From Rhytidiadelphus loreus (Eukaryota > Streptophyta > Bryopsida > Hypnales > Hylocomiaceae), in contig OX344765.1 in the NCBI GenBank assembly GCA_947034895.1, positions 3,353,001-3,417,000 on the forward strand: 64,000 bases of DNA, read 5' to 3'. Of this stretch, positions 1,615 to 63,593 are shown piece by piece. The first letter of the stretch is position 1; the number at the start of each line of letters is the position of its first letter. The notes beneath the pieces are model-generated. The model had not been told where the DNA came from. It ran no database searches and worked only from the letters and a program-made list of their open reading frames with translations. The position numbers and the translations under genes are program-made.

Positions 1615-2042
1615 ATCTACGAATCTTCCGTCGGATCATCGCCAGGCTTCGGTCAAACTGAACTCCTTTCCACAAAATCTACGTTTGTGGAGCGTAATCT
1701 ACGTATGCGACTGCTGCTGGTGAGAGCGAGGAGGCGATGGGAGGGCTGGGCGGCGGGCGAGAATGCTGCACGCTGTGCCTTCGAATCTACCAACAATGCG
1801 ACCAATCAGCGTCAGGATGTGATGGAATTGAACTGCCATATCGTACATCTACGCTTTGGGGAATCAATCTACGCTTTGGGGAATCAATCTACGCTTTGGG
1901 GAATCAATCTACGCTTTGGGGAATCAATCTACGCTTTGGGGAATCAATCTACGCTTTGGGGAATCAATCTACGCTTTGGGAAATCAATCTACGTCCATCG
2001 CTGCAGGTAGGCACGCTAGCACCTAGTCCCCTCAAATCTACG
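1615..2042 (+). repeat. ATCTACG module cluster 1 (two modules plus an extra A site)
   Basis: Module 1 has heptamers at 1615 (A), 1677 (B) and 1697 (C). Module 2 has them at 1785 (ATCTACC), 1847 and 1867. Spacings are 62 and 20 in both. A further A-type site lies at 2036. Between C and the next A is a GC-rich linker of about 88 bp. Reading frames run through this cluster in two phases because the units lack frequent stops, but the heptamer falls in different phases, so I do not call a protein. Confidence 0.9.
1847..1993 (+). repeat. 20-bp tandem array, eight ATCTACG sites
   Basis: ATCTACG recurs every 20 bp at 1847, 1867, 1887, 1907, 1927, 1947, 1967 and 1987; the unit is CTACGCTTTGGGGAATCAAT. 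The inverted copies at 23901-23927 and 40272-40298 have only the normal B-C pair. The array is therefore a left-arm-specific amplification of exactly the B-to-C interval. Confidence 0.95.
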
Positions 2043-2104
2043 AATTCTTCGACCAATCAGCACCAGGGTATGATCGAATTGAACTATCGTCCAGCCCAGT
2101 TATA

Positions 2105-2580
2105 AATCCTGGCTAATTTTTTTTTTTTGTCTTGTATGAATTCTTTATTTTCTGAGGGTTTTCAAAATTAGAAAATTATCTAGGTTCCTGTAATTTACGA
2201 TAGCCATTTTCGATTCACAATTCCAAATTTATTCATAGAAGATTATTATATTCGATATGCTTTTTACTTACTTTTAGAAATTTGCTTACAAATGTTGGAA
2301 TGAATTGGCTAATTATCCACCCAAACAAATGATCTGTCAATGAAATTAGGTACATAGATATTTTCTAGTTAAATTTGGTTAAGATTCATGCAATATAATT
2401 TCGGTAGTCTTGGCAAGCTTCTTTGCACATACAATTGACCTTTGAGAACTTATCTGGAATGCTAATTTGATTTAGCTTGTAAAGTAAATATATTTGATTG
2501 GGATCTTCACATAATTGCTTCACATTTACAAGTGATATAGAAAGTTGATTTTTTGAAGCTAATTATGTAATTTTAAAATT
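2105..2580 (+). repeat. AT-rich tail repeat following module cluster 1
   Basis: Non-coding AT-rich sequence that follows the modules. It contains the landmarks 'caaaattagaaaattat', 'caatgaaattaggt', 'tattttctagttaa' and 'cttggcaagcttctttg' in order. The same landmarks follow other clusters (16195, 8549 reversed order of insertions, 19660, and in minus orientation 22870, 28742, 39690 and 48050). It appears to belong to the same repeat unit as the modules. Confidence 0.7.
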
Positions 2581-3600
2581 AAAGCAAAAGCTTAGGATAA
2601 GTCTTGCTTTCTAGAAAATTTTGTCCTTTGGAATTGATGTTTCTCAATTTCATGTCAAAAGAATTAAATACATAATTATATTTTTATTTATATACCTAAT
2701 TACATAAAAGAAATCCACAATTTTAGAATCAAATTTGTTGCCATAGATTTTCAAATGTAAAAATATAATACACATGATGCTTTTCTAAAATAATTAAAAT
2801 TAAATTTGTTGAGTACAATTTCTACTGTCACATTTTAAATTTGAAAAAAACACATTTTTGACTTGACATATCACCAATCTATTGTGTATAGAATATTAGC
2901 AAAACATATTTTTGAAAGTATGCAATATGCAAGTGTTACCCATAGAAAATTTGAGATGGATGAAAATTGCATCACTTGAAGACCAATGAACACTTAAGTT
3001 TGCATTTGCTCGTTGTTCAAAAAATGAACTTCCAAGTGCTTATAAGTTCACTTGAAATGCTTCTATCATGGTTATTACTGTGTTTATGTCAACACCCACA
3101 ACATATGCACATGTTATGCATAATTATGTTATAACCTCTTTTGTATGTGAAATATTCCACACCAACATCCTCCACCATCTAACCCATCCACTTGCCATAA
3201 TATTCAACTTATAAAATTGACTTTTTGTAATCACAAATTTTTACCATAATCAATTCAACTAAAACATGAAAAATATCAATCATATATAAAACATACACAA
3301 TAAAGGTTAGAACACACAACCATTCATTGTTTAACAGCCGTTGCTTATGAAAGCACACACAATGCATCAATTAAATTTCTTCATGACAAATTCAAACTTC
3401 CAAATCACTCCATTAAACGAATACGGAATCATAGCCATTCAATAGGCTACATACATTCTTTTACATACAATAGGCTAATGTTGGGTGTGGAATATTTCAC
3501 ACCATTTCATCCTTTAAATGAAAGGTAGCATAGCTCATTGCTATTTTTTTCCTTGCATTGAAAATTGACCATGTGTTTCAAAAAAGAAAATTAGTGAATT
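2581..3600. repeat. Dispersed arm repeat, non-coding
   Basis: AT-rich sequence with no gene. It is repeated in inverse at 37800-38745 and, with a 432-bp insertion, at about 21860-22990. A diverged piece is at 32259-32600. Position 2579-2582 (TTAA) is the empty site for the element inserted at 38749-39673 in the other arm. Confidence 0.75.
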
Positions 3601-4070: not shown

Positions 4071-4386
4071 AACCCCTTAATGCCTCGATCCTTTTTCAAA
4101 TTTTGACACATTTTTGCTTATATCTTTCTACAAAAATATAATTTTAGCGCAATTTCATGAAATTGATCATTAAGGAAGTTTGTCTTTTCAAGATTCAAGT
4201 GTTACATTGGATGAATGAAAACTTACTTGGACAAAACAGCGCCTCGAAGCTCTCTGTTCATTGTCCAGAATATGGACGTTGGAGCGCTTGACACGCATGG
4301 GAGTTGGAGAACATCTGAGATCACCCGAATGAAATCAGATTGGAAACCGTTTGGGATTTGCTGATTTCCTGCACAAGTCCGTCTAG

Positions 4387-4475
4387 ATCTACGAGTGGTC
4401 CGTGGAATCGTCGTCGGGCTTGGATCCAATTCAACTATTTTCCTAAAAATCTACGCTTTCGAGTCACGATCTACG
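4387..4475 (+). repeat. ATCTACG module cluster 2
   Basis: Single module: 4387 (A), 4449 (B), 4469 (C), spacing 62 and 20. Its mirror copy in the right arm is 36837-36925 and its direct copy is 51489-51577. The preceding 4071-4386 is AT-rich with a TTAACCCCTTAATG start at 4070 and no recognisable gene. Confidence 0.9.
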
Positions 4476-4703
4476 AATGTCATTGCTGGTGGGCATGAAA
4501 GACACAGTGAGACATCGGGTGAGGACTTGCATCGCTGTGCAGTCAAACTCATTTTGTTTCATTCATTTTTTTTAATTTAATACAATTTCTGTAACAAATA
4601 AGCTAATTGTCTTCAAGTGCTCCTTTAATGAAATTAGGTTTAAAAATTTATTTTCTAGTCATTTTGGTTAAAATTCAAGCATCATAATTCACTAATTCAT
4701 ATA

Positions 4704-5128: not shown

Positions 5129-5643
5129 TTAAAGCATCGCTACTAGGCCTTTGCAACTGCCACTCCATGCTTGTCATGCATGCCCAGACAAAAACGGCTC
5201 TACACTAGCACCCCATCGTTGTGCCGATCCTCGTGTCACTCCCACATTTGCCCAATGGTAGAGGGCCTTTGTAGCAGGTAATTTTACACTCACGCCAACT
5301 TGGTCAACTTTGACAATAGCCTTAGTTGAAGACGTGGAGGCTAGTGAGAGGTGTAAGAAGAAAGGGAAGTACTTTAGTGAGAACTTTTAAGGTGCAGAGC
5401 ATCAGGGCTTGAGTGTGCCGCCACATCTCATGAGGCAGCAAGTGCCAAGCCACTTTTTGATGCCGTAGTCAAATGGAGTGCTACTTGGTGGCAATGCTCT
5501 TATCTCGTATTGGATATTGGATATGATTTTCTTTCACAATATTTCTTCAAATAATGATTCATTTCAATTTTTATTAACTAACAAAAGACAAACGACTTCA
5601 TATCCGATATGTCGTTTGAGTTTCCACTCACATGTCCCTCTTC
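5129..5643. other. Gene-free spacer shared by both arms
   Basis: Relatively GC-rich for the window, with no motif I recognise. The inverted copy is at 35680-36186. Short frames exist on both strands but differ between arms. Confidence 0.4.
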
Positions 5644-6005
5644 ATCTACGATTCCTTGGGTGGATCATCATGGAACGATACATAACGTGGACTGCTATCC
5701 AAAGTAATCTATGCTTTTGCAGTTCAATCTACAGGATTCGTATTTCCAGGAGGCTACATGGAAGCAGGTCGACGAGTGGATGCAAGTGGGCGGTTGCAGG
5801 AGTGACGGTACTGTGCCTTCAAATCTACAAATTCCACATTGAATCAGAATCATGTTGTGAATAAGTTACATTGCACTGATTTTGAAATAATCTTCACATT
5901 TGTAAATCGATTTATGTATTCCACAACAACTGGGCGTATACTACTGAGCCTACGCTCTGCTCTAAAAATCTACGAATATAGCATACCATAGACTCCAAAT
6001 CTACG
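5644..6005 (+). repeat. ATCTACG module cluster 3, decayed
   Basis: Sites at 5644 (A), 5707 (B, ATCTATG) and 5727 (C), spacing 63 and 20, then an A-type site at 5823. A pair at 5968 and 5999 is spaced 31 bp, unlike other clusters. The inverted arm shows the same 63 and 31 spacings (35365-35680), so these variants predate the duplication. Confidence 0.75.
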
Positions 6006-6383: not shown

Positions 6384-7481
6384 TAATACTTTGTGGAATC
6401 AACATGACAAAAAGATTTAATTAGACTATACATTCAATAATCTATTGTTCTCTCAATCGATCTACGTTCTCTTCTTATGTCTGATTGTGTCTAGGCCTCA
6501 AAATCTACACATTCTTTGTCAGATCAGGATTTAGTCGAATTGAATTGGGTTTTCTCAGTGTCTACGTCTCCTAAACCTTTTACCAAAGGTTGTTTTTGTG
6601 TTTACACTTGCATATGCTTGTAGACACATGACAATGGAATAGCATCATAATTGAGTTTTTTTTTATTAGTTTGGAGACATTACATGTTTTTTTGCTACTC
6701 TAGAGGGCAACAAGTTCCCATCTAGAAACTTGTGAAAACCCGTTGAAACCCGCGAAAACCTGCTGAAACCCGCTGTTCGCAAGTTGGGCTGACCTGGCCA
6801 AGCGACTTCCCTATCACTTTTTTTGAAAAAAAAAAATTAACTTTGTTTTTTTATTTTAAGGATTTTAAAATTTATTTATTTATTTTTGAAAAAAAATATC
6901 TGACACTGGCGTTCGATGAGACCGGGGGGAACAGAGCTAGGAACAGGCTTGAAACAGCCCTCCAGCCTCCCTGATCTCATCTAATGAGTAGTGAGCTATT
7001 TCTTTAATACTTGGGGGTGATGTTCAGTGATATCAATATCAAAACTAGGTGATACCTAGATAAAAATTGGCTATTGATCTTAAAATACAATGGAATGGTG
7101 ATAATTTGGCAATTTTTTAATTAGTTTGGAGAACTAACTAGCTATTTCTTCAATACTTGGATGATTCTTGGTAATATCGATATCAAAACTAGGAGATACC
7201 TGAATAAAAATTGACTATAATTGATCTTGATATACAGTGAAATGATGGTAATCTAGCAATTTCGGCCCTTGAAAATGAAAATTTCTCTTACGAAAAATAG
7301 CCAATGTCTTGTGGTTGTAACCAAAGAGCAAGAAAGTATGCATGAAAATCACATTGAGCATCACGGAACCACAACTTTCAATTGTTGCTTGTCTTGCTTC
7401 AGGATGAAAAACCCTACTTGTTGCATATAAGGCAAGTGGACAGCATGGGGCGTCCGCGGGTTTGCAGCGCTGTGTCTTCAA
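6384..7481. repeat. Gene-free stretch with a local ~135-bp duplication
   Basis: No gene is visible. Degenerate heptamers occur at 6460 and near 6503-6560. The sequence around 6990-7110 is repeated around 7130-7260 and again near 17790-17920 (landmark 'gatatcaaaactagg'). The inverted arm copy is 33900-34980. Confidence 0.55.
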
Positions 7482-7570
7482 ATCTACGAACAGTCCGGAG
7501 TATCAGCGTTAGGGTATGATTCGATTCAGTTGTTTTCTAGAACATCTACGCTTCTGTACATCAATCTACG
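7482..7570 (+). repeat. ATCTACG module cluster 4
   Basis: Sites 7482 (A), 7544 (B) and 7564 (C), spacing 62 and 20, all three perfect heptamers. The mirror copy is 33797-33885. Confidence 0.92.
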
Positions 7571-7703
7571 TAGTCCACTGCGGGTGGGCGCTTGCGGTTT
7601 AGGCCAGCTACTGCTCATGCTTTGGAACTGATGGGCGAATTGGATGTGCTACTCTTACATTTTTTATATCCATCATTTGAACGAAATATTCTAAATTCAT
7701 TAA

Positions 7704-8548: not shown

Positions 8549-9305
8549 TACTTTCTTTTATAAATTTGTTACGGATATTGTAAACCAATCGGCTAATTGA
8601 CTTTGAATTTTTTTTTTCTATATGCAATCGTTATTTTGGTTAAAATTCAAGCAATATAATTTCATTGATCTTGGCAAGTTTCTCTGTGCATACAATGAGT
8701 TTCACTGAAATTTAGTTGGCAATCCATGAAAAAAAATTCAAGGGAAAAAAACTCAAATACAAAAAGGGTTCCTTGTTGTCCGTTGTGCTAGTTGAGAATA
8801 AAAAGACTAAATTGGACATAACTTTGTAGCCATTAGTCCAAATTCTATCAAATTGAGCTATATTATTTTGTTGAATTTGTATGAGTTCTTATTCTACATA
8901 TGTGGAATAGCCATGCAATGCATTTTAGTGCCTTGGGCTTTTTGTTTTAAATCTTAGTTTAATAATCTTTATTTTTTTAAAAGTTCAAGCAAAACGGAAA
9001 GTTAATTTACACAAAAAATTATAACCCTACAACATACATGTGCTCAAAAAAAAAATTCAGATTTCTTGAGCTTATTTCATATTTGATATGAATTTTTTTC
9101 ACTAGTTCTTCAACCAATCATACTAGTTTCTAATTTTACAGAAAGCATTGAAAATTGTATGATTTATTGAAGTCATGTGATTTCATGTTGAAAAACGAAA
9201 AAACAAAAAAACAAAAAAACAAAAATTTCAGTCTACAAGTCACTGAGACAAGTGCATGGGATAGAAGCACCGATCTTGTGGTTCTTTGCTCACAAGTCCC
9301 CCTAC
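8549..9305 (+). repeat. Tail repeat and AT-rich spacer, no gene
   Basis: Contains tail landmarks (wide 'tttgttacggatattgtaaa', 'ttcaagcaatataatttcat', 'cttggcaag'), then AT-rich sequence shared with 31670-32110 and 33010-33240 in inverse. Confidence 0.6.
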
Positions 9306-9394
9306 ATCTACAAGTCCATCGTCAGATCATCATCAGGCTGTAGTCGAATTAAACTATATTCCCCAAAATCTACGCTTCAGTGACTCAATCTACA
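9306..9394 (+). repeat. ATCTACG module cluster 5
   Basis: Sites 9306 (ATCTACA), 9368 and 9388 (ATCTACA), spacing 62 and 20. This module and about 430 bp after it are duplicated at 13270-13640. The right arm has a single copy (31566-31654). Confidence 0.88.
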
Positions 9395-9553
9395 TACTCC
9401 CAACGCGCGCACATGGAAGCAGGGTGGAGTCATGGAGTCTCAGTTTCTTTCAGTTGGACCTGCGATTCTTCTCTGAATCTGCGGCAGACGCGACAGGTTC
9501 GGACTTCATAATTGAAATCCCCTGTTTCAATTCTCAAGATTTGGCGAGAATTA

Positions 9554-13255: not shown

Positions 13256-13269
13256 GCAAGTCCCCCCAC

Positions 13270-13380
13270 ATCTACAAGTTCATCGTCAGATCATCGTCAG
13301 ATCATCGTCAGATCATCATCAGGCTGTAGTCGAATTAAACTATATTCCCCAAAATCTACGCTTCGGTGACTCAATCTATG
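13270..13380 (+). repeat. ATCTACG module cluster 6, with 22-bp expansion
   Basis: Sites 13270 (ATCTACA), 13354 and 13374 (ATCTATG). The A-B distance is 84, not 62, because an 11-bp unit (atcatcgtcag) between them is present in extra copies. The B-C distance stays 20. Confidence 0.88.
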
Positions 13381-13888
13381 TACTCCCAATATGGGGTAAG
13401 CAACGCGGGCACACGGAAGCAGGGTGGAGCCGTGGAGTCTCAGTTTCTTTCGGTTTGACCTGCGATTCTCCTCTGAATCTGCGGCGGAAATGATGCAGAC
13501 GCGATGGTTTCAGACTTCAGAATTGAAATCCCCCATTTCAATTCTTGAGATTTTGCGAGAATTAGCGAGAATTGGCGAGAATTGGCGAGAATTCAACAGT
13601 TCTAGTGGAAAATGGGAGATCGCAGCTGAACCTTTTGCTACAAACGTGGTTTCTGACTTTCTGTTCGGTGCTTTCATTGCAACACATACACAAGTTATAT
13701 ATATTGTAACCTTCTTTCATAGCAACACCGTTTGACCATCGGAGCTTCCGCAAGCCAACGTCGTTCCCAAGGTAATTAGCACTGACAACAAAATCATGCA
13801 CAGTGATTCTTCCTTTGCCTGAGAAGATGAACCATAAGAATTAATTAAGTCCAAGTCTATTATAATTGTTGTGTGTTATTTTCTCTCC

Positions 13889-15130: not shown

Positions 15131-15430
15131 CTAGGAATCATTCAGAATACCGGCGCAGGGTCTTTCTGATGTGAGATCCACGGAGGGAGCTACAGAATCG
15201 CCGAGAAATTTGCGGAGATCGAAGTGCGCGCTGGTGGCGGTAGAGTACACACGAATCTCCAACGACGCACAGCTTGAATTGTCGACAGGGAGGCTCCCTG
15301 CCATTATATTCCCAAATGCAGAATCCCGACCCCTAGAGCGCACACTCAAACACCCCGTCATGGAATCACAGGGAAACCTCCCGGGGATTTCTTTGCCATC
15401 GGTCCATGATCCATTACATCTACGAAGCAA
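15131..15430 (-). CDS. Unrecognised coding-like fragment (left copy)
   Basis: Minus-strand frame containing GSWTDGKEIPGRFPCDSMTG and ASLEIRVYSTATSAHFDLRK. Over about 80 residues the right copy (29511-29816) differs at only two (Cys/Tyr, Ala/Ser). Other differences fall at third positions (for example Ser tcc/tct, Pro ccc/ccg), while the opposite strand's frame shows about five replacements. This favours the minus strand as the real coding strand. No family recognised; no start or stop context suggests a complete gene. Confidence 0.4.
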   Translation of the reverse strand: MLRRCNGSWTDGKEIPGRFPCDSMTGCLSVRSRGRDSAFGNIMAGSLPVDNSSCASLEIRVYSTATSAHFDLRKFLGDSVAPSVDLTSERPCAGILNDS

Positions 15431-15861
15431 CTATTGAATCATCGTCAGCCTTTGGTCGAATTGAACTCTATTTATACAAAATCTACGTGTTTTAAGCGTA
15501 ATCTACCACTGCCGAATGCAGGCGAAAGGTAGGGTGCGACCTCGGGTGAGGTTGCACTGTTGTGCATTTGAATCTACGACAAGTTAGACAAATCAGCGTT
15601 AACTTTTTGATTAAAGTCTACGGATTTCTCAAACATCTACGCTTCTGTAATTCAGTGGGAAAGGCACGGGGCGTCTGCGCGCTTGCGCAAGCCTGTGCAC
15701 CGTACCATCAAATCTATGAATAGTGCGATGCATCACCATCGAGATGTGATTGATGTAAGGGGATTTGTCAAACATCTACGGTTATGTGATTCAATCTACG
15801 TAATCCGCTGTCAATCGGAGACAAAGTGCACGAACCAATGCTCTGTCCCTTCAAATCTACG
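15418..15861 (+). repeat. ATCTACG module cluster 7 (three modules and an extra A)
   Basis: Sites 15418/15481/15501 (63, 20), 15572/15635 (63; C lost), 15712/15774/15794 (62, 20) and a lone A at 15855. The mirror cluster is 29079-29535. Confidence 0.88.
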
Positions 15862-16192: not shown

Positions 16193-16194
16193 TC

Positions 16195-16935: not shown

Positions 16936-18591
16936 CACAAATTAGTACAAATACCGACAAACAAATGACTCAAAGAACTAGCACAAAATTTTAATAATAG
17001 ATTAAATTCCATTTTATCTAATTTTCAAACACATCAAATGCCAAGCATCGCAACATAACCATCTACATAGAACAATGCTCATCTTCATTATCCGCATGCT
17101 CCAAAGCCATATTTCCCGGCACACAGTACAAATAGTGAAAGCACATATTAACAATACAAGAAATGACATGCTTGAACAATGCACTAGCTATTATAGGGAA
17201 TCCAAAAGAGCATAGACTTTCAATTCCCAAATTAGACTACAAACATGCACATTCTACGCCATACTATTTCCATAAAGATGATTGGTCCTCCTTAGAGCAC
17301 GTGCCATACAAAAGACCAATGTGCTTTCTAAAATCTTTTCTAGACCAAAAGAAGCTAATGAAAATACTAAAACAACTTACAAATTTCCATCTATCAACAA
17401 ATAGGTAGAAAATAAAACAATCCTAGTTACCAACCATCAATAAATTTTGGACCAATCCCACCATTATAGATGCACAAATTACACAATCTTTTAAATTTTG
17501 ATACAAACAATACTCATAGGTCAAATCTGCAAACATCTCTTTTGGCCAATAAAATACCCATCCCGCACAAAATGCCTACTATATACCCTAAATCAAGCAA
17601 AAATTTGGATACATATACAATTGAATGAAATTAAATTGTTTTCTTAAAATCTACACTTGCGTAACTACGTCCCCCACACCTTCTAGTGCGTGCGTGCAAG
17701 CAAAGGTTGTCTTCAAGTTTACACTTACATATGCTTGTAGATACATGGTAGTCAAAGAACATCATCAATTGTTATTTTGATTAGTTTGGAAAAGTAGCTA
17801 GCTATTTCTTCAATGGTTGGGTGATGCTTGGTGATATTGATATCAAAACTAGGCGATACTTAGATAAAAGTTGGCTATTGATCTTAAAACACAATAGAAT
17901 GGTGGTAATTTGGTGATTTTTTTGGAAAGAAGTGAGTATGGACCTTGCAATGTGCAACAACATACAACATGTCATTAGGTGTCTCTTGACTTTAAAATCC
18001 TCCCCTAGAATTGTGCCCCAAAGTGCATATTCTATACATTTAATCCTTAAAAGACATTTTATGTCTAAGCTTGGTCAAACTTTAGCATATTTGTAAATTA
18101 AATCACACTATTCAAAAATTCAAATTTATTTTTATATAATTAAAGGTATCAAATTCAATTTGATAAGATTTCATAAAGAATTTTTTGGTAAAAATCATAG
18201 CAATTACAAAAATACCAAAAAAACAGTATAAATTTTTGGACAAAATGGAAATGGTAATGCAAAACATCATGGTATAACTAGTTGAGCTTACACCAAGAGT
18301 AATTTGATAGAAAAAATTCAAAAATAGTGCGATTTTGAGCTTTCAAGATGCTACTGTATCTTCGAAGTGTTACAAAAATTTAAATTTTAAAATTTTTGAA
18401 AGAAATTAAAATGGAAAGAAAAGTAGATTATTAGAGCTACATTTTCTTAGTTAAATTTATAAACACTTAAAATCAAGAATTATGTGAAAATTTCAGGTTT
18501 TGACTTTCAAAATGCCCTCATCGGGCTTGCAAGGTCCTTCAACGGGTAACACAGGGAAACGTTGCTCGGATAACACATGTCCATCCATCGT
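16936..18591. other. Loop start, gene-free
   Basis: AT-rich DNA unique to the loop, with a C-rich plus strand before 17600, a decayed module-like pair at 17649-17669, and the 'gatatcaaaactagg' repeat near 17830. An 81-codon frame at 17163-17408 has no recognisable motif. Confidence 0.4.
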
Positions 18592-18850
18592 ATCTATGAA
18601 GCATTTCTCGAATCATCATCAGGCTTTGGTCAGATTCAACTGCTTTCCACAAGATCTACACTTTTGCAATGCAATCTACGTATTCCGATGCTGTTAAGCT
18701 CATGAAGGCAAGTGGAAGGCATGGGGCGACCGCGGGTATGTAGCACGCCTGTGGCTTCGAATCCACCAACAGTACAACATATCAGCGTCTGGACATGATT
18801 CGATTCAGCTATTTTCTTAAAAAATCTACGCTTCTATATCTCAATCTACG
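18592..18850 (+). repeat. ATCTACG module cluster 8 (two modules)
   Basis: Sites 18592 (ATCTATG)/18654/18674 (62, 20) and 18761 (ATCCACC)/18824/18844 (63, 20). Another heptamer is at about 18906. Confidence 0.88.
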
Positions 18851-19079
18851 TAGTCTGCTACAGGTGGGGGCCACCAGCTCCGAATCATCACCTGGATATT
18901 ATTTTCAAAATCTACGTTTTTCTATAGTCCGTCTTCTTCTCCCGCAACATTTGTTTTCACGTCTCCACTCCCATGCCTGCAGCCTCGGTGGACTAACGAA
19001 GAACAATGTTGCTGCTGGTTTTGCTTCGGAACTGAATGGCCAATTGGATGTACTACGGTATCCTTACCTTTTTAATTAA

Positions 19080-21303: not shown

Positions 21304-21383
21304 CCCATTCTGACGCAGCTGATGAAGACTTGATATAATAATTCAATTCGATCCGTACCCCAGTGTTGATTGGACGAAGAATT

Positions 21384-21698
21384 CGTAAATTTGAAGGGAC
21401 TGGGAAGGCACCTGTCTGCAGCGATAGACGTAGATTGAATCACAGAATCGTAGATACGTGATATAACAGTTCAATACAAATCCACCCTGACGCTGATTCG
21501 TCGCATCGTTCGTAGATTTGAAGGCACAGCGTGCAGCATTCCAGGCCGTCCCCCCGGCCGTCCCTGGCCCTCCCCTTGCCTCCTTGCGCTCACCAACAGC
21601 AGTTGTATACGTAGATTAGTCTTCATAAACGTAGATTTTGTGAAAAGGAGTTCACTTCCACCAAAGCCTGACGAGGATCCGATGGAGTATTCGTAGAT
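21384..21698 (-). repeat. ATCTACG module cluster 9 (two modules plus an A)
   Basis: Minus orientation, positions of CGTAGAT: 21384 (CGTAAAT, A), then 21429/21449/21511 and 21610/21630/21692. Spacings 20 and 62 in both modules. Confidence 0.92.
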
Positions 21699-22003
21699 AT
21701 TGAAGGAAGAACCTGCGCAGATGCAAACGCTTCGAATGGCCATCTGATTCTATTTGGGGGTGTCATCAGAGCACGCGATCTGGCGTCGCTACTTTGCGTG
21801 GGGAGCCAGCTGTCGACATGCTGTAGATTCTTGTATAATCTAAATCTGTAATCTAATTGATATGTGATTGATATTTTTCATGTTTTAGTTGAATTGATTA
21901 TGGTAAAAACCTGTCGTTACAAAAAGTTAATTTTATAAGTTGAATATTATGGTTTGATGGTGGAGGATGTTGGTGTGGAATATTTCATATACAAAGGAGG
22001 TTA

Positions 22004-23740: not shown

Positions 23741-23840
23741 AGAAAATAAAGGACCAAAAAAAGAATTAACCAGAATTTATATCTGGGCTGGACAGTAGTT
23801 CAATTCGTATCATACCTTGGTGCTGATTGATTGAAGAATT

Positions 23841-24159
23841 CGTAGATTTGAGGGGACTAGGTGCTAGCTCCAATGGTCGGCGCCTACCTGCAGCGATGGA
23901 CGTAGATCGATTCTCCAAAGCGTAGATGTACGATCTGGCAATTCAATTCCATCATATCCTGACGTTGATCGGTTGCATTGTTGGTAGATTCGAAGGCACA
24001 GCGTGCAGCATTCTCGCCCGCCGCCCAGCCCTCCCCTTGCCTCCTCGCTCTCACCAGCAGCAGTCGCATACGTAGATTACGCTCCACAAACGTAGATTTC
24101 GTGGAAAGGAGTTCACTTTGACCGAAGCCTGGCGATGATCCGACGGAGGATTCGTAGAT
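23841..24159 (-). repeat. ATCTACG module cluster 10
   Basis: A at 23841, then 23901/23921/23983 (GGTAGAT) and 24071/24091/24153. Spacing 20 and 62 in both. Counterpart of 1615-2042 without the tandem expansion. Confidence 0.92.
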
Positions 24160-24203
24160 GTAGGAGGAGGGACCTGCGTGTGCAAACGGAAGCCAGGCGT
24201 GTC

Positions 24204-24631: not shown

Positions 24632-25069
24632 TAGTCTCTCTGAATGATGATCGGAGTGAAGATCGGAGTGAAGATCGTTGCTCCCTGAATGGATTCCAAG
24701 TCCCAAAACACCTCTGACGAATTGACAGAAGTTTTGCACAAAGCCTTTGCAGTAACTTATACACACACAAAGCCTTTTCAATTTTGTTTCAAAATATGAG
24801 AGAGACAGCTAGCTATGTATGTAAATTTTTAGCTGTCTGACAGAAGCCTCGATGTTTTCAATCACGGAGTATAGTGTCGGATTTTGCACATGCTTAGAAA
24901 ATTTTGAAGAATTCTTGGCAGGAACAAATTAAATGGTGGAGTAGTTGAGGTTGTTGGATTGCATCAAGGTATTAATTCTCGATTCCAAGGTCCGGTTATC
25001 GTTTTTCTAGGATCCAATCGAGGAGATGGAGGGAAAATAAGATTCATGAGCCTCTGTTAGACTGTTCCA

Positions 25070-29078: not shown

Positions 29079-29535
29079 CGTAGATTTGAAGGGACAGAGC
29101 ACTTTGTCTCCCACTGGCAGCGGATTACGTAGATTGAGTCACATAACCGTAGATGCTTGAGAAAACACCTAATATCAATCACATCTTGACGGTGATGCAT
29201 CGCACTATTCGTAGATTTGGTGGTACGGTGCACAGGCTTGCGCAAGCGCGCAGACGCCCCCATGCCTTTCCCACTTGCCTTGAGGCGTTCACGTGCAGTG
29301 GAATACGTAGATTGAATTACACAAGAGCAGATGTTTCAGAAATCCGTAGACTTTAATCAAACGCTGGCGCTGATTCGTCTCATTGTTCGTAGATTCGAAT
29401 GCACAACAGTGCAACCTCCCACGCCTTTCGCCTGCATTCGGCAGTGGTAGATTACGCTTAAAACACGTAGATTTTGTGTAAATAGAGTTCAATTCGACCA
29501 AAGCCTGACGATGATTCAACAGTTTCTTCGTAGAT
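29079..29535 (-). repeat. ATCTACG module cluster 11 (three modules and an A)
   Basis: A 29079, then 29128/29148/29210, 29306/29326/29388 and 29446/29466/29529. Spacings 20 and 62 (63 in the last). The middle B site has decayed to AGCAGAT yet keeps its place. Mirror of 15418-15861. Confidence 0.9.
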
Positions 29536-33663: not shown

Positions 33664-33796
33664 TTAATGAATTTACAATATTTCGTTCAAGCGATGGCTT
33701 TGAAAAATGTAAGAATAGCACATCCAATTCGCCCATCACTTCCAAAGCATGAGTAGTAGCTGGCCTAAACCGCAAGCGCCCACCCGCAGTGGACTA

Positions 33797-35364: not shown

Positions 35365-35680
35365 CGTAGATTTGGAGTCTATGGTATGCTATATTCGTAG
35401 ATTTTTAGAGCAGAGCGTAGGCTCAGTAGTATACGCCCAGTTGTTGTGGAATACATAAATCGATTTACAAATGTGAAAATTATTTCAAATGAATTTGTAG
35501 ATTTGAAGAAACAGTACTGTACTCCTGCAACCGCCCACTTGCATCCACTCATCGACCTGCTTTCATGTAGCCTCCTAGAAATACGAATCCTGTAGATTGA
35601 ACTGCAAAAGCATAGATTACTTTGGATAATAGTCCACGTTATGTATCGTTCTACGATGATCCACCAAAGGAATCATAGAT
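35365..35680 (-). repeat. ATCTACG module cluster 14, decayed
   Basis: Pair 35365/35396 (31 apart), then 35591 (TGTAGAT)/35611 (CATAGAT)/35674 (CATAGAT), spacing 20 and 63. Mirror of cluster 3. Confidence 0.75.
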
Positions 35681-36186
35681 GAAGAGGGACATGTGAGTGG
35701 AAACTCAAAACGACATATCGGATATGAAGTCATTTGTCTTTTGTGAGTTAATAAAAATTGAAATGAATCATTATTTGAAGAAAGAAAATCATATCCAATA
35801 TCCAATACGAGATAAGAGCATTGCCACCAAGTAGCACTCCATTTGACTACGGCATCAAAAAGTGGCTTGGCACTTGCTGCCTCATGAGATGTGGCGGCAC
35901 ACTCAAGCCCTGATGCTCTGCACCTTAAAAGTTCTCACTAAAGTTCTTCCCTTTCTTCTTACACCTCTCACTAGCCTCCATGTCTTCAACTAAGGCTATT
36001 GTCAAAGTTGACCAAGTTGGCGTGAGTGTAAAATTACCTGCTACAAAGGCCCTCTACCATTGGGCAAATGTGGGAGTGACACGAGGAACGGCACAACAAT
36101 GGGGTGCTGGTGTAGAGTCGTTTTTGTCTAGACACACACGACAAGCATGGAGAAGCAATTGTAGAGGCCTAGTAGCAATGCTTTAA

Positions 36187-36608: not shown

Positions 36609-36836
36609 TATATGAATTAGTGAATTATGATGCTTGAATTTTAACCAAAATGACTAGAAAATAAAATTTTAAACCTAATTTCATTAAAGGAGCACTTGAA
36701 GACAATTAGCTTATTTGTTACAGAAATTGTATTAAATTTAAAAAAATGAATGAAACAAAATGAGTTTGACTGCACAGCGATGCAAGTCCTCACCCGATGT
36801 CTCACTGTGTCTTTCATGCCCACCAGCAATGACATT

Positions 36837-36925
36837 CGTAGATCGTGACTCGAAAGCGTAGATTTTTAGGAAAATAGTTGAATTGGATCCAAGCCCAACG
36901 ACGATTCCACGGACCACTCGTAGAT
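36837..36925 (-). repeat. ATCTACG module cluster 15
   Basis: 36837/36857/36919, spacing 20 and 62. Mirror of cluster 2. Confidence 0.92.
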
Positions 36926-37239
36926 TTAGAGGGACTTGTGCATGAAATCAGGAAATCCCAAACGGTTTCCAATCTGATTTCATTCGGGTGATCTCAGATG
37001 TTCTCCAACTCCCATGCGTGTCAAGCGCTCCAACGTCCATATTCTGGACAATGAACAGAGAGCTTCGAGGCCCTGTTCTGTCCAACTAACTTTACATTCA
37101 TCCAATGTAACACTTGAATCTTGAAAAGACAACCTTTCTTAATGATCAATTTCATGAAATTGCAATAAAATGATATTTTTGTAGAAAGATATAAGCAAAA
37201 ATGTGCCGAAATCTAAAAAAGGATTGAGGCATTAAAAGG

Positions 37240-40120: not shown

Positions 40121-40211
40121 AGACAAAAAAAAAAGAATTAGCCAGGATTTCTAACTGGGCTGGATGATAGTTCAATTCGATCACACCCTGGTGCTGATTG
40201 GTCGAAGAATT

Positions 40212-40529
40212 CGTAGATTTGAGGGGACTAGGTGCTAGCTCCAATGGTCGGCGCCTACCTGCAGCGATGGACGTAGATCGATTCTCCAAAGCGTAGATGT
40301 ACGATATGACAGTTCAATTCAATCATATCCTGACGTTGATCGGTTGCATTGTTGGTAGATTCGAAGGGACAGCGTGCAGCATTCTCGCCCGCCGCCCAGC
40401 CCTCCCCTTCCTCCTCGCTCTCATCAGCAGCAATCGCATACGTAGATTACGCTCCACAAACGTAGATTATGTGGAAAGGAGTTCACTTTGACCGAAGCCT
40501 GACGATGATTCGACGGAGGATTCGTAGAT
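40212..40529 (-). repeat. ATCTACG module cluster 16
   Basis: A 40212, then 40272/40292/40354 (GGTAGAT) and 40441/40461/40523. Spacing 20 and 62. Mirror of cluster 1 and direct copy of cluster 10. Confidence 0.92.
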
Positions 40530-40576
40530 ATCGAAGGAGGGACCTGCATGCGCAAACGCAAGCCCGTTTGTCACAC

Positions 40577-45269: not shown

Positions 45270-45360
45270 AACAATTCCATCATACCCTGGTGTTGATTCA
45301 ATGCAACATTTGTAGATTTGAAGGTTGACTCAGCCGCACTCGCCCACCGGCAGCGAACTA

Positions 45361-45619
45361 TGTAGATTCAGGTACAGAAGCGTAGATGGTTACGAGGACA
45401 GTTAACTTGAATCATTTCCTGGAGATGATTCGCTGTTGTGCTCGTAGATTTGAAGGCATAGATCGCTGGTTCTCTGCGGCCGCTCCCCACGCTTTCGACT
45501 TGCCTCAATGCTCCTGCCTGGTGTGGAATACATAGACTGGGTCGAGAAAGCGTAGATTCATTGGGAATTAGTTCAATTCGATCAAAGCCGTTTGAAGATC
45601 CGATGGAAGGTTGGTAGAT
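45361..45619 (-). repeat. ATCTACG module cluster 17
   Basis: 45361 (TGTAGAT)/45381/45443 and 45531 (CATAGAC)/45551/45613 (GGTAGAT). Spacing 20 and 62 in both; an A-like site is near 45311. Confidence 0.9.
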
Positions 45620-46029
45620 ACAGAGGGACTCACGAGCACATCTGCAAACGCTTCAAGAATTCCCCACGAATTCCCTATGAATTCCCAGTGACCCCTCACT
45701 GCGAATTTCAGAATGTTCTACATAGTGTATTCCCCAAGAACTGCAGTACGGTAGTAGGTCCATAAATAGACCACCTAAGAGCTGGAATGTGAATTTTGGG
45801 GGAGGTAAAACTTATTGAAATATTTTCAGTAAATTTTTCTTGAAAGACAAGTGGAATTGGAATGTAACCCAAGTCGTTTCATATTTTTTGGAGCTCTGTG
45901 GAATTAGTTATAAAATTTTGAAGTTTAACTGACATAGGGCTCTAAAATCACCCACTTCCTAAACTGCACACTCTTTGTACATCAGTGAAGACTATGAAAA
46001 AGCAACATGTACAAATAGTGTGCATTTAA

Positions 46030-48480: not shown

Positions 48481-48549
48481 CCCAGCCGTGGATGATACAC
48501 TTAAACCTGAAAACAACTTCCATTTGCAGGCACCAGCATCCTGTATGGG

Positions 48550-48969
48550 CGTAGATTGAATTACAAAAACGTAGACTTCTTAAGAAACATGCCAATTCGA
48601 TCATATCTAGGTGCTGATTCGACTTAGAATTTATAGATTTGAAAGGACTGAGCGTTGATTCAGTCGCATTCTCCGACCGCAGTAGACAACGGAGATTGGG
48701 TTATAGAAGCGAACATGTGTAAGAAATCAGTGCAATTCAACCACATTCCGACGTTGATTCGTCCCAAAGCTCATAGATTTGAAGTCACAGCGCGTTGCAC
48801 ATCCGCGGTCGCCTCAGAATGCATTCCATCCGACTTCATGTGCCTGGCAGCAGTGAAACACGTAGATTACAGTGCAAAATCATAGATTACAGTGCAAAAT
48901 CATAGATTTTGAGGAAAATAGCTCGATTTGATCAAAGTCCGACGAAGATCCGATGTCAAGCTCGGACAT
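48550..48969 (-). repeat. ATCTACG module cluster 18 (three modules, one with duplicated 20-mer)
   Basis: 48550/48570/48632; 48690 (CGGAGAT)/48710 (CGAACAT)/48772; and 48861/48881/48901/48963. In the last module a 20-bp unit is duplicated, yet the outer A is still 62 bp from the last B-type site. Decayed heptamers keep exact spacing. Confidence 0.9.
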
Positions 48970-49098
48970 ACAGAGGGTCTTATGAGTGTGTTTATACCCC
49001 CCCTCCACGAATTCCGAATCTCATTTCACAAAGACTATATTTATTTATTTATTTAAACAAAAGGCAGAGCCATTGCATTAAAAAAAGAAACCACAATA

Positions 49099-50577: not shown

Positions 50578-51785
50578 TAATGTTGGGTGTGGAATATTCC
50601 ACAACATTTCATCCCTTAGATGAAAGGCAACATAGCTCATTGCTACTTTTTTTCCTTGCAATAAAAATTGTCCATGTGTTTCAAAAAAGAAAATCAGTGA
50701 ATTGTTGTTTTGTACTTCCTGATTGGTTAACCCTCAAAGAATGAGCCGATTACCATCAAAATCATCTGTTTGGATACCCGATGAGGATTGTTGGCTTAAA
50801 AAAATGAAAAAACACTCATTAGAAGACAAAATAACCTTCCCTTTTCACACAAAATTTGGAGCATTTCTATCCTACATAGAGAGATTCTTTGTCATTCATT
50901 GGCTAGAAAACATCCTCTACATCGTTTATGGGTTAATTCTTAAAGGATGAAGGGGTGACCTTGGAGATCATCCCTTTCCATCTTTCCATTACAGAGTGAA
51001 TCATGAGTTTTAGAAATAGCAAAAGCACTAGTTGTAAGTCAAACTATTGTAGAAGACCTCCCCTTTTCACAACAAAATTTCAAAGATGAATAGTTGTACT
51101 TCTATCCTACTACAAAGATTCCTTGTCATCCATCAAACGCCAAACGTCCTCCTCAATGTTTAACCCCTTAATGCCTCAATCCTTTTTCAGATTTTAACAC
51201 ATTTTTGCTTATATCTTTCTACAAAAATATCATTTTACCGCAATTTCATGAAATCGATCATTAAGGAAGGTTGTCTTTTCAAGATTCAAGTGTTACATTG
51301 GATGAATGAAAAGTTAGTTGGACAAAACAGCGCCTCGAAGCCCTCTGTTCATTGTCCAGAATATGGACGTTGGAGCGCTTGACACGCATGGGAGTTGGAG
51401 AACATCTGAGTGTAGCTGTGATCACCCCGAATGAAATCAGATTGGAAACCGTTTGGGCTTTGCTGATTTCCTGCACAAGTCCATCTAGATCTACGAGTGG
51501 TCCATGGAATCGTCGTCGGGCTTGGATCCAATTCAACTATTTTCCTAAAAATCTACGCTTTCGTCTCATGATCTACGAATGTCATTGCTGGTGGGAATCG
51601 GGTGAGGAATTGCATTGCTGTGCAGTCAAACTTGAAGCAACTTATTATTTTGTTTCATTCATTTTTTAAAATTTAATACAATTTCTGTAACAAATAAGCT
51701 AATTGTCTTCAAATGCTCCTTTAATGAAATTAGGTTTAAAAATTTATTTTTTAGTCATTTTGGTTAAAATTCAAGCATCATAATT
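50578..51785 (+). repeat. Third copy of arm sequence (direct copy of 3475-4690)
   Basis: Collinear with 3475-4690, including family F (50735-51165), the TTAA-CCCC start near 51165 and the single module. Frames differ by small indels. Confidence 0.85.
51489..51577 (+). repeat. ATCTACG module cluster 19
   Basis: 51489/51551/51571, spacing 62 and 20. Tail landmarks follow to about 51990. Confidence 0.92.
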
Positions 51786-52041
51786 GAGTAATTCCTTGCA
51801 ACCTTCTCTATAAATACAATTGATTGCTTAGAAGTTGTCTTGGACGATGGGTTTCTTTTTGCTTCTAAAGTAAAAGTACATCTAATTGTCTCCCAATTTG
51901 CACCTCAATCTTTGGTCCCAATCTAAATTTAGGGTAGTCCTACTTGTTTAATGAGATTTGTGATACATGAATAAGAAAGAAAGACAACCTCACATTTGGT
52001 TTTGAAATTAAATTAGAAGGCGTAAGCATTGGGATGAGCTA

Positions 52042-52132
52042 CGTAAGACTGAGCTACGTACGTGTAGATGTTCGAGAAAACCAGTTCTATTAATTCATAA
52101 AATGGCGTTGATTCGTGTAATCAGTCGTAGAT
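52042..52132 (-). repeat. ATCTACG module cluster 20, degenerate
   Basis: 52042 (CGTAAGA)/52063 (TGTAGAT)/52126, spacing 21 and 63. Embedded in a junction between copied segments. Confidence 0.65.
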
Positions 52133-52379
52133 TCGAAGGTACTATGCGCAGTCACCACATTCTAGAAACTTGAGAAAACGAATTTTTTTTATATACTTGA
52201 CACCCACAAGGTTTCAGTGAGTTGGAGGAGGGGAGCATAAGGACTCCCTCAAATATACACGTGCCTACCCTTGTTGGACTTCATTATGCTACCCTTTACC
52301 CTCTGATGGACTGATTCGAAATTGCAGTATATGTATGCTCGATCGAGCTTTCAATTTTTTTTGAGAATGAAATGAATGC

Positions 52380-53560
52380 GTAGAGAGAGACAGCTAGCTA
52401 TGTATGTCAATTTGTAGTTGTCTGACAGAAGCCTCCATGTTTTCTTTCTTATACAGTCACGGAGCTTAGTGTTGGATTTTGCACATGCTTAGAAAATTTT
52501 GAAAAATCCTTTGGAGGAACATAATAGTCCTTTGTGCATACGTAGATTGCGCTCCACAAACGTAGATTTAGTGGAAAGGAGTTCACTTTGACCGAAGCCT
52601 GGCGATGATCCGACGGAGGATTCGTAGATGTAGGAAGAGGGACCTGCGTGCGCAAACGGAAGTCAGCCGTGTCGACCCCGCGGAGCTCCGCAGGGTCCAA
52701 AGGTAACTTAAGGTTCAGAGCATCAACGCGATTTGGGGTCGCGCCTTTGCTTGGGGAGCCAGCTGTCGACAGGCCGGCCGTACGTCGTTACAGATTCTTG
52801 TGGAATCCCTTTTCCACCATTCTGTCGGTAACGCCCATTCTCTTCTCTTCCCTTCTCGACTCTCTCTCTCTCTCTCAGTTAGTCTCTGTGCACGTGAAGA
52901 AGAGCAGAGTGTCGATCGTTGCTCTCTGAATGGATTCCAAGTCCCAAAACACCTCTGACGAATTGAAGCACAAAGCCTTTGCAGTAACTTATACACACAC
53001 ATATGCATGCTCGATCGAGCTTTCAATTTTGTTTCATAATATGAGAGAGACTTTGAAATAATTAATGCGTAGAGAGAGACAGCTAGCTATGTATGTAAAA
53101 TTTGTAGTTGTCTGACAGAAGCCTCAATGTTTTCTTTCTTATACAGTCACGGAGCTTAGTGTCGGATTTTGCACATGCTTAGAAAATTTTGAAGAATTCT
53201 TGGCAGGAACAAATTAAATGGAGGAGCTGTCAAGAGGGATTTTTGTGGTGGATATGAAATTTCTGTGAATGCCACCTTCGAGCCATCTGATACTCTAAGA
53301 AAATGGTTAATTAAGTAGTTGAGGTTGTTGGATTGCATCAAGGTATTAATTTTCGATTCGAAGGTACGGTTATCGTTTGTACAGAAGTGCACTTACCAAG
53401 TGGTAATCTCAGTGCCAAGAGTGGCTGATCAACACCGCGCTAGCTAGAACGGTGTCTGCGAAGCTACCAATTCATCATTTTATAAAAACTAAACTTTAAG
53501 TTCATTTACTCTCGCTGTCAATTCTTTGTTCCATAATAGATATCATATAGAAAACAACAC
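52380..53560 (-). repeat. Fourth copy of the 400-1700 arm sequence
   Basis: Minus-orientation copy matching 40530-41890. It includes module 52541/52561/52623 (20, 62) and the GC palindrome at 52674-52697 (one mismatch). A partial second copy of its outer part is at 52380-52520. It provides empty sites for the MITEs at 24387 and 40964. Confidence 0.85.
52541..52629 (-). repeat. ATCTACG module cluster 21
   Basis: 52541/52561/52623, spacing 20 and 62, perfect heptamers. Confidence 0.92.
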
Positions 53561-54963: not shown

Positions 54964-55054
54964 TTAATTCTATCACACCCCTGTGCTCAATGCTTGTAGA
55001 TTTGAAGAGACAAAGAGCCAGCCTCAGCCATATTCGCCCATTTGCATCCAACTA

Positions 55055-55304
55055 CGTAGATTCAGGTATAGAAGCGTAGATGTTTAAGAGATCAGTTAAA
55101 ACAAATCATATCCTGGAGATGATTTGGCGTCGTGCTCGTAGATTTGAAGACACAACCGACTGGTTTTCTCCGATTGCGCTCCACTTGCCTTGATGCGCCT
55201 GCGTGGTGTGGAATACATAGATTGAATTGATGAAACGTAGATTTTGGGGGAAATAGTTCAATTAGAACGAAGTATTTTGAACATCTGATGTACGGTTGAT
55301 AGAT
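55055..55304 (-). repeat. ATCTACG module cluster 22
   Basis: 55055/55075/55137 and 55216 (CATAGAT)/55236/55298 (GATAGAT). Spacing 20 and 62. Closely related to cluster 17. Confidence 0.9.
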
Positions 55305-55461
55305 ACAGAGGGACTCGCGAGTAAATTTGCAAACACCCTATGAATTCCCTGTGAATTCCCAGTGATGATTTCAAGGGTCAACGCGAAAGTTCCTGTGTAT
55401 TTTCGAAGACTGCAGTACAATATTTTACAGTGGGTTCAAGTATCTTACATTGTGCCATTCA

Positions 55462-61239: not shown

Positions 61240-61575
61240 CCCCTCTAATTTTCATTTCAAAGCTTAAATCTGAGGTTGTTGTTTTTATCATATATGTGTT
61301 GCACAAATCTCATAAGCCAAGTACAAATATTCTAAATTTAGATTAGGAAAGAAGATGGAATATAAATTGTGAGGCAATTAGGACAAATTAACTAATTATC
61401 AATTAATTAAAAAATTATGATGCATACTAATCATCAACAAACCAACTAGAAAATATTGGTTTAATTAATTTTATTGAAGGAGTATTTGGGAGCAATTAAT
61501 AAATTTGTCACAATATTTGTGACAAATTTATTTAAGTTAGTAAAAAAAATCATATTGATTGTAGTAAGTTGCTAC
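61240..61575 (-). repeat. Tail repeat, copy parallel to 48050-48370
   Basis: Landmarks 'gttgcacaaatctcataagc', 'aaatttagattaggaaagaa' and 'tgtcacaatatttgtgacaa'. Confidence 0.6.
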
Positions 61576-63326
61576 AATTATTGAGATTAAAATATTTATT
61601 CAAAATGTCTATATTTTAAGTGAGATTGTTTTTGTTTTTGTTTTCCTAGATTCTATAGTCAAGTTTAAGTGACTAGAATCATTCTGAGAATGCTTGTATT
61701 CCAAACTAGTCTTATTTGAGAAGAAAAAAAAATGCATGTGAAGAAAATAGACAAGTATCAAAGAGGTATCGTCTTTGCTTAAAATTTTTGCCTATTAGAT
61801 ATCCATTCCTTATTATTTTTTTGTTATTTTTTTGCTTAAGAGATGATAAAGATCTCTATGAAAACAATAAAAAAATCACACCCTCCCATCCATGAAGAAA
61901 ATGGAGGTTTATGATAAGATCTGATGTATCTTATTACATCAAGCATTTGACTACACATTAAAACAACATATACTGCAATACTACCAAATCTCTATGACAT
62001 TTTCTTAAAAAACAACATAAAGAAGTGGTTCAACCTTCTTTATTTCAAGGCTTGCATTAATAGTCGGTTCAATACTTTGATTTCAAAGTAATTGGAATGA
62101 TTATAATATATTTTTTTCTACTCTAAGGATGAATTTGTTTATCACAATTTTTTTTCCATTAGGTTGCCTATACACAATTTTACTGAGATATTATCTAGAG
62201 TTAGCTGTGCACACCAAAGTAGCCAATATTTTGACTCGAAGCTCATATTATTGTTGCTACTATAGAGTCGGTGGAAAGAGAGACCAAGGTGGCCAATTGT
62301 CTACTTTATGTTGGGCACAAACTTAGTACTTTGCTTTAGCTGTTTTTAGAGGCTCAGAGTTGTACAGGAATATACTGTTACATTGTAATTGGAAATTCTA
62401 ACAAACACTGTGACTTCTTCACGTTCCACCACAAGCTTCCATGTTCACAAAATGAGCCAAATTATATTTTGAGTAGTATGTCTAAGTTATGTTTGGTATG
62501 ATTGATTTATTCTCCTAGTGAAGGTGATAATGAGTGCTTATAGAGTAAAACACCTCATGTACCTTACTAACGTTCTATTTTTGTCATATTGTGGAATGAA
62601 CACAGTTAAAGTGTGCAGCCTTTTAGAACATTTTCAAGACTCTTCAAAAAACTCTTTACTACTTCCTCGTGATTTATGGTTTAGCTTGCTTATTATTTGA
62701 TTGAAAGGTGATAGATATTCTCCATAAATGCATGTATGAGATATCTTATCATGAACGAAGGGAATCCATTATTTGTCTACTTTTTCAAGAGGACCTATGA
62801 ATCGTAAAAGACAATTTAATTAAGCTTAGTGTAGCTTACACTCGTATACTCTTTTTTGCAAGTATACAAACTTACATATCAATGATATACGAAGATTGCA
62901 TATAGACAAAAGTAGTTGAGCTATGACCTGACTCATATAGGTTTAGACAAAATAAGAATATTACTCAATCATGGGATGTTCCAGAGAAAGTGGTTTTGTT
63001 TGAGATCTCTCAAGCCGTGCCTCCTTCATGTAGTGTTCTTGGTACCATCGGAAAGCTCTTTGTGAGGAAGGGTGGACATGCTTTATTTCATGCCGTTTGA
63101 ATATATGGTATAAAAGACATTGAATTTCAAAGGTTTAATGAGTTAAAAAATTAGAAAATACTTTAATTTTAATTTTATTATAGTGTGGCAATGGCTATGA
63201 AAGGATAATAAATTTGCTAATTTTGAAAATGAACCATTAAGAAAAAGCACTCCCTATGATTTTTACAAGAGCGTGAGTCCTGCACGGTGCCCCAATTGTC
63301 CGCATGCGCTCCACTATAGAGGAATA
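61576..63326. other. No recognised gene; family D repeat at 63000-63130
   Basis: Frames at 62129-62326 and 62518-62700 have no recognisable motif. The D block 'tcttggtaccatcggaaagc' near 63045 is inverted relative to 12540-12650. Tail-like 'ctaattttgaaaatgaacca' precedes the next cluster. Confidence 0.4.
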
Positions 63327-63593
63327 CGTAGAATAAGTTACAAAAGTGTAGATGTTCGAGAAAATAGTTCTTTTTAATCACATTTTGTCGCTGATTCGTA
63401 TCATAGATTGTAGATTCGAATGGATAGCAGTGCAATTCCGCAACCGCTTGTGCCTCGTGCCTTTCCACCTGCCTTCAGTTCACGCCCACCGTGCTTTTGA
63501 AAGTCGTAGACTGCAACTCAAAAGCGTAGATTTCGTATAAATTAGTTAAATTCGACCCAAGCTTAACAAGGATTCGACGAATGATTCATAGAT
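63327..63593 (-). repeat. ATCTACG module cluster 23
   Basis: 63327 (CGTAGAA)/63347 (TGTAGAT)/63409 (TGTAGAT) and 63505 (CGTAGAC)/63525/63587 (CATAGAT). Spacing 20 and 62 in both. Confidence 0.9.

Follow-up and report, generated by a model that had tools for sequence, protein, structure and literature searches.

Four-site heptamer cassettes with constrained sites and spacing in a repeat-rich region of Rhytidiadelphus loreus

Introduction

What keeps a seven-base word, and the exact distance between its copies, intact in DNA that is otherwise decaying? The question is raised by a 64-kb region of the Rhytidiadelphus loreus genome (contig OX344765.1, positions 3,353,001 to 3,417,000; the whole of this stretch is referred to here as the window), in which the heptamer ATCTACG recurs in triplets whose starts lie 62 and 20 bp apart. 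A first-pass annotation took the triplets to be docking sites for a protein or sites on a transcript. We find that each triplet belongs to a cassette of four sites, that the sites change more slowly than the bases between them, and that insertions and deletions (indels) are rare within intact cassettes. We consider which kind of element could account for this combination.

Results

The heptamer pattern is genuine. The window contains 90 exact matches to ATCTACG, compared to 2.54 expected from 100 shuffles, and 13 exact triplets at offsets 0/62/82, compared to none in the same number of shuffles. For sites with at most one mismatch, same-strand distances have maxima at 20, 62, and 82 bp; among opposite-strand pairs up to 200 bp apart no distance stands out, the best accounting for only 4 of 89 pairs. 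Six of the seven triplets originally offered as examples are exact, whereas the seventh (63505/63525/63587) is exact only at 63525 and has one mismatch at each of the other two positions. The decayed triplet said to keep its spacing (48772/48710/48690) was found, as were the cases with 63-bp spacing (15418/15481, 15572/15635, and 29466/29529). The original count of more than 30 is reached once decayed and off-spacing copies are included, but not with exact triplets or with gapless 0/62/82 modules that carry some mismatches, of which there are 28 (hand-curated, with register repeats of a 20-bp array dropped). The sites lie on one face of the DNA, as originally suggested, only approximately, as 20, 62, and 82 bp correspond to 1.9, 5.9, and 7.8 turns at 10.5 bp per turn.

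Column conservation reveals a degenerate site, ATCnnCG at +20, that the first-pass annotation missed. The four sites are thus ATCTACG at 0, ATCnnCG at +20, and ATCTACG at +62 and +82, and because of the degenerate site we describe the cassette as two pairs, each with 20-bp spacing, placed 62 bp apart. When modules are aligned on the first site (site A), the positions between about -11 and +95 form a block that is almost gap-free in strong copies, with indels gathering just outside it, at -23, -12, and +96. The conserved columns are most of the three heptamers, the A after the first, the TT after the second, the ATC at +20, and the C at +25. An even lattice of five slots at 20.5 bp was considered and rejected: the +20 slot is backed by the invariant ATC columns, but a +41 slot is not, there being no self-similarity at lag 41.

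Modules fall mostly onto separate tree branches as A-type and B-type, and they diverge to about 70% identity while the sites stay. The two types stand in tandem, 141 to 191 bp apart (161 to 181 bp in 8 of 11 A-B pairs) and in varying helical register, and are often followed by a third, mostly truncated copy. Each locus, designated below by a lowercase letter, comprises between one and four modules, whole or partial, and loci are about 1 to 8 kb apart (Table 1). They follow the order h-a-b-x-c-d-e in one orientation, mirrored on the other strand, with b3 as an inverted exception. According to a tandem repeat finder, the unit at the +62 slot has twice expanded into a 20-bp repeat, at 1847 to 1993 and, over a shorter distance, at 48863 to 48908.

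A profile made from the 28 modules with the heptamers hidden has 42 whole or partial matches in the window. Among the 38 that span sites A to B, a net distance of 62 bp is kept in 29 and not in 9; by hand count, as are these figures, the 29 represent 17 lineages. Five more lineages do not have this spacing (f-B, e-A, x-A, x-B, and 52126). Many copies are local duplicates (locus a is present four times, b three times, and c, d, e, and h twice each). The copies thus reduce to some 17 old lineages, with local duplications added, and within the window the spacing holds outside recent duplicates, in about that number of lineages.

The heptamers evolve slowly. On a parsimony tree built without them from the 28 modules, heptamer columns average 1.19 changes and the other 86 columns 4.41, a 3.7-fold difference. 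If the heptamer mask is slid along the alignment, the true register gives the lowest count (25 changes, equaled at -1, compared to 46 at -3 and 47 at +3). The 28 modules were picked partly by their heptamers; therefore, three checks were run, with the masked profile, with ranked columns, and with alignments found regardless of heptamers. In the 14 profile matches outside the building set, the consensus is kept at 143 of 162 heptamer bases, compared to 628 of 898 others. If only recent duplicates are counted (20 gapless modules from 8 clades), changes affect 5 of 252 heptamer bases and 93 of 1,018 others (Fisher P = 1.8e-5). Columns ranked by rate on a tree of 16 old representatives also predict the rate in recent duplicates, taken as a separate set. 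The rate rises, apart from one small reversal, from 1/216 in the slowest class, the columns without any change on that tree, to 23/166 in the fastest; slow columns outside the heptamers are slow there as well (6/168 versus 77/756 for fast columns; P = 0.003). Finally, in window self-alignments of 75 to 99.9% identity, found regardless of heptamers and with both directions counted, ATCTACG survives in 128 of the 137 comparisons that fall inside cassettes and in 8 of 12 outside, whereas other 7-mers are kept at 0.53 and 0.56, respectively. Outside cassettes the word is thus retained at about the background rate, which argues against low mutability of the word itself. Heptamers and linkers have diverged unequally within the window, and simple shared descent, which the first-pass annotation named as the refuting case, fails as an account of heptamer conservation in these alignments.

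The spacing itself also looks constrained, apart from the sequence, because indels are rare within intact cassettes and common around them. In window self-alignments of at least 200 bp and 65 to 99.9% identity, the 34 listed cassettes have 3 indels and their flanks 483, or, per substitution, about 0.01 versus 0.16 (rounded output). A positional tally over ten pairs of loci a, b, d, and h, some of them redundant with one another, gives 0.00 to 0.20 indels per 100 bp in the bins of module A and 0.25 to 0.37 in those of module B, compared to 1.4 to 2.3 in the two bins between them and 0.5 to 4 in most flank bins. A separate comparison of 13 pairs gives 106 gap openings in 2,927 bp of near flanks and 11 (not inspected individually) in 1,383 bp of cassettes, a 4- to 5-fold difference (P = 8e-9); near flanks and cassettes there have GC contents of 0.50 and 0.45 and homopolymer values of 0.060 and 0.037, respectively. 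The decayed modules x1 and x2 have indels and one differing heptamer. Together, the unequal divergence and the spacing kept in old lineages lend indirect support to the protein-docking part of the original proposal.

There is no coding or RNA-structure signal in the cassettes. Conservation is flat across the three codon phases (1.08, 1.06, and 1.12 bits), RNAalifold predicts 0 consensus pairs for 18 modules, and no Rfam family was matched by the whole window at the gathering score or by one locus at E values up to 1. A search for protein homologues of one module open reading frame (ORF) returned none. We rejected a coding exon on the basis of the flat phases and the lack of a homologue for that ORF or one gene-side ORF, and an RNA gene because there are neither consensus pairs nor an Rfam family. 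The same results disfavor the idea of sites on a transcript, of which an unstructured sequence site on RNA may be the remaining option. The cassettes are also rich in CpG: the observed/expected ratio in the 28 modules is 1.38 (1.09 without the heptamers), compared to 0.55 elsewhere in the window. Such undecayed CpG is expected if the DNA is free of methylation or under selection.

Literature searches for the heptamer, its complement, or similar layouts turned up no named family with a pair of pairs of ATCTACG, an absence that extends as far as those searches. The exact pattern had no relatives in the viral_contigs and genome_contigs collections, which consist of viruses and prokaryotes and are thus little informative.

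The nearest transcription-like feature lies at the a loci, where a gene-like first exon was recognized (Table 1). Its first 24 bases, counted from the ATG, recur exactly at 40790(+), 52930(+), and 1330 to 1353(-), so that at four a loci they are found on the other strand, about 260 to 530 bp beyond module A. By eye, three a loci have a CT-rich leader before the ATG and a GT donor about 63 bases after it. A perfect 24-bp palindrome, GACCCCGCGGAGCTCCGCGGGGTC, occurs at 1547 to 1570, 45 to 68 bp before site A of a1, and also in a2 and a3.

The rest of the window is a mosaic of repeats. There are no intact genes, and no stop-free frame exceeds 158 amino acids. Pfam searches with 18 of the 87 frames of at least 80 amino acids gave nothing above the cutoff; the best match, PPR_2 at an E value of 0.052, is to a PPR-like peptide fragment in a stop-free frame at 14592 to 14882. 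A large inverted duplication (2579 to 17000 versus 28200 to 38750) has main blocks of 83 to 94% identity with later insertions in either copy, and self-alignment shows further partial copies of the duplicated blocks. A miniature inverted-repeat transposable element (MITE) with inverted ends GGTAGCCAACCTC occupies 8118 to 8550, and its empty site is the duplicate near 33242; segments at 22002 to 22437 and 53909 to 54170 align to it, the latter only in part. A CACTA-like MITE, identified by eye at 40963 to 41338 in locus a3, is missing from the a1 alignment. Other elements include a foldback-like one with ACCCAATTCCAACC ends (9552 to 9779 and 24378 to 24633), inverted pairs TTAACCCCTAAAG / CTTTAGGGGTTAA at about 19076 to 19662 and 46026 to 47061, probably the ends of another element family, and two 23-bp tandem arrays with unlike units (21095 to 21303 and 55468 to 55605). 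Near locus b, TGTTGGTGTGGAATATTTCACA, which occurs at 3146, 3480, 21968, 37811, and 38159, was a candidate for a terminal inverted repeat but was rejected as internal, because loci a1 and a2 remain alike past it.

Table 1. Cassette modules and the gene-like exon in the window (MP, matched by the heptamer-masked profile)
Feature	Positions	Strand	Remarks
a1-A	1604..1710	+	exact heptamers 1615/1677/1697; MP
a1-B	1774..1993	+	site A is ATCTACC; contains 20-bp array (7.3 copies) of +62 slot unit; MP
a1 third module C', truncated	2026..2092	+	MP
b1-A	4376..4482	+	exact triplet; MP
x1 (A and B), decayed	5612..5946	+	spacing lost
c1-B	7471..7577	+	exact triplet; MP
d1-A	9295..9400	+	MP
d2, partial	13260..13386	+	MP
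e1-A	15407..15514	+	63-bp spacing; MP
e1-B	15561..15660	+	63-bp spacing, third site deleted; MP
e1-3	15701..15807	+	MP
f-A	18581..18687	+	MP
f-B	18751..18857	+	one-base insertion; MP
g third module, truncated	21330..21400	-	MP
g-B	21422..21528	-	exact triplet; MP
g-A	21603..21709	-	exact triplet; MP
a2 third module, truncated	23789..23857	-	MP
a2-B	23894..24000	-	MP
a2-A	24064..24170	-	exact triplet; MP
Gene-like first exon	24689..24751	+	GT donor; far side of a2-A; by eye
e2-3	29121..29227	-	exact triplet; MP
e2-B	29299..29405	-	middle site ATCTGCT; MP
e2-A	29440..29546	-	63-bp spacing
d3-A	31559..31665	-	MP
c2-B	33790..33896	-	exact triplet; MP
x2, decayed modules	35425..35708	-	
b2-A	36830..36936	-	exact triplet; MP
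a3 third module, truncated	40160..40228	-	MP
a3-B	40265..40371	-	MP
a3-A	40434..40540	-	exact triplet; MP
h1 third module, truncated	45272..45324	-	MP
h1-B	45354..45460	-	MP
h1-A	45524..45630	-	MP
i-C	48543..48649	-	full-length third copy; MP
i-B	48683..48789	-	heptamers decayed, spacing kept; MP
i-A	48854..48980	-	20-bp duplication of +62 slot unit; MP
b3-A	51478..51584	+	inverted relative to neighbors; exact triplet; MP
Decayed module	52038..52157	-	MP
a4-A	52534..52640	-	a1 alignment stops just past its last site; exact triplet; MP
h2-B	55048..55154	-	exact triplet; MP
h2-A	55209..55315	-	MP
j-B	63320..63426	-	MP
j-A	63498..63604	-	MP

Discussion

On balance, and with modest confidence, we read the cassette as a composite docking site on DNA that resembles a promoter or enhancer and is carried in a noncoding repeat unit amplified locally. 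All of the sites of the cassette (about 107 bp) would be filled jointly by a DNA-binding protein or complex, so that the sites and their exact distances would matter and the intervening bases would not. Constraint on the sites and distances, and not on most of the bases between, in DNA that gave no coding or folded-RNA signal in the tests run, fits several protein subunits held at set positions on the helix. The tandem groups of cassettes would sit inside a repeat unit of several kilobases that is otherwise decaying, whether it belongs to a mobile element or to the host, and would probably serve it as a promoter-proximal or enhancer element. Promoter-proximal is our first guess, because it is at the a loci that the closest transcription-like feature is found.

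What characterizes a composite cis-regulatory element, i.e., conserved sites and spacing with a free spacer, is found in the cassettes. Enhanceosome-type enhancers, and the tandem enhancers in the U3 region of plant long terminal repeats (LTRs), have sites at fixed helical spacing with free spacers, upstream of the transcription start. The cassette differs in repeating one heptamer instead of combining sites for different factors, and no LTR primer site was found in a search with the initiator-Met pattern. The iterons of replication origins, too, repeat in direct orientation at intervals of about two helical turns, with fixed spacing and cooperative binding of an initiator. However, no replicon or Rep gene is seen in the window, and the cassettes form a pair of pairs, not an even array.

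Several observations weigh against the composite docking site. In the indel count, x1, x2, the copy at 52.1 kb, and the truncated third copies were scored as flank, and one border indel was dropped; cheaper gap costs shrink the contrast to 0.04 versus 0.15, and a few flank bins are as low as those of the cassettes (0.00 at -550 and +1000). The recent-duplicate counts exclude the e-A, e-B, d2, and x pairs, which are not gapless. Locus e has lost sites at 15635/29332 and 15654 in recent duplicates, in which single heptamers have also changed at 13374 and 15712 (loci d and e). The control for word retention outside cassettes is small, at 12 words, and there the shorter ATCTA is slightly above background (106/151; 0.70 versus 0.64). 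The P values are optimistic, because the comparisons share sequences. At the a loci, the a3 gene has an in-frame stop (by eye) beside an intact cassette, and no homologue was found for one ORF of the gene; at other loci no clear transcription start is seen, and the exon-like sequence was recognized only in the a loci. The predicted docking sites have no known binding protein. Finally, some 35 copies occur within 64 kb, and it is difficult to see a simple host function for which each would be selected; why each of so many copies would be selected is the weak point of every reading.

Alternatively, the cassettes could be cis sites near one end of a transposable element, bound by a transposase, Rep, or helper protein, in which case the window would be a graveyard of copies. 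We consider this possible but unlikely. The units are repeated and dispersed through a region rich in mobile elements, the cassette adjoins different sequences in different families, and short repeated motifs are typical of subterminal sites, as in soybean CACTA elements (PMC2613891). In plant CACTA elements (En/Spm and Tgm, with TNPA-type proteins), a short motif likewise occurs many times within a few hundred base pairs and is a proposed site of protein docking; the soybean repeats are both direct and inverted, vary in length, and lie beside CACTA ends with 3-bp target duplications (PMC2613891). The cassette sites, in contrast, are direct and fixed in spacing, and nearly all loci, b3 excepted, share orientation and order instead of forming inverted pairs. 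Neither terminal inverted repeats nor target duplications tied to cassettes emerged from the searches made: a pattern for CACTA-type ends, CACTACAAGAAAA, with up to 3 mismatches, occurs 54 times compared to 44 expected, which is the chance level; CACTA-like ends seen by eye resemble those of small MITEs; and an initiator-Met primer pattern, at 2 mismatches, has 2 matches against 3.2 expected. Moreover, dead copies should drift, whereas recent whole-block duplicates stay constrained.

A satellite-like or architectural array, with sites for a chromatin or a centromere/pairing protein, is in our view quite improbable. It would suit the nucleosome-sized distance of most A-B pairs and the occurrence of many constrained copies of two module types whose sites outlast the divergence of the modules. 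The analogy is with CENP-B boxes, short protein sites in diverged alpha-satellite monomers of two types; one of the two units of the dimer carries the box (PMC8122249). The likeness is one of pattern only: in the cassettes, every module has four sites whose distances are fixed, there are no long tandem arrays, and the tandem repeat finder lists no array with a period of 160 to 180 bp. Functionless descent from an old 20-bp minisatellite, with the heptamers as its remnant core, would accord with the two 20-bp arrays of the +62 unit and with the likeness of slots at lags 20, 62, and 82 (z = 1.7, 3.7, and 4.4), but lag 41 shows no similarity (z = -1.2). This origin predicts equal divergence of heptamers and linkers, which is not observed, cannot draw on low mutability of the word, and leaves the avoidance of indels unaccounted for; we regard it as very improbable. 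A remnant of a coding exon or RNA gene we hold to be extremely improbable, given the flat codon phases and the negative structure, Rfam, and homologue results, although one frame is open through most cassettes, with 11 stops in 924 codons compared to 34 in 952 and 51 in 924 for the others.

A bolder version of the docking site, which we think rather improbable, is that a DNA-binding protein as yet undescribed in this host reads the rigid pair of pairs in dozens of cassettes of one cluster, and that the host keeps most of them, amid dead genes and repeats, as a chromosomal landmark. Such a landmark may mark a locus for pairing, silencing, amplification, or a centromere-like function, set by sequence and geometry.

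To our knowledge, sequence-level signs of selection on distance alone, apart from sequence, have seldom been demonstrated for comparable noncoding DNA. Should the constraint extend across the genome, the cassette would be a bait for a new DNA-binding factor and a clean test of docking by helical phase. It would also mean that selection acts on many copies inside a repeat region that appears to be decaying.

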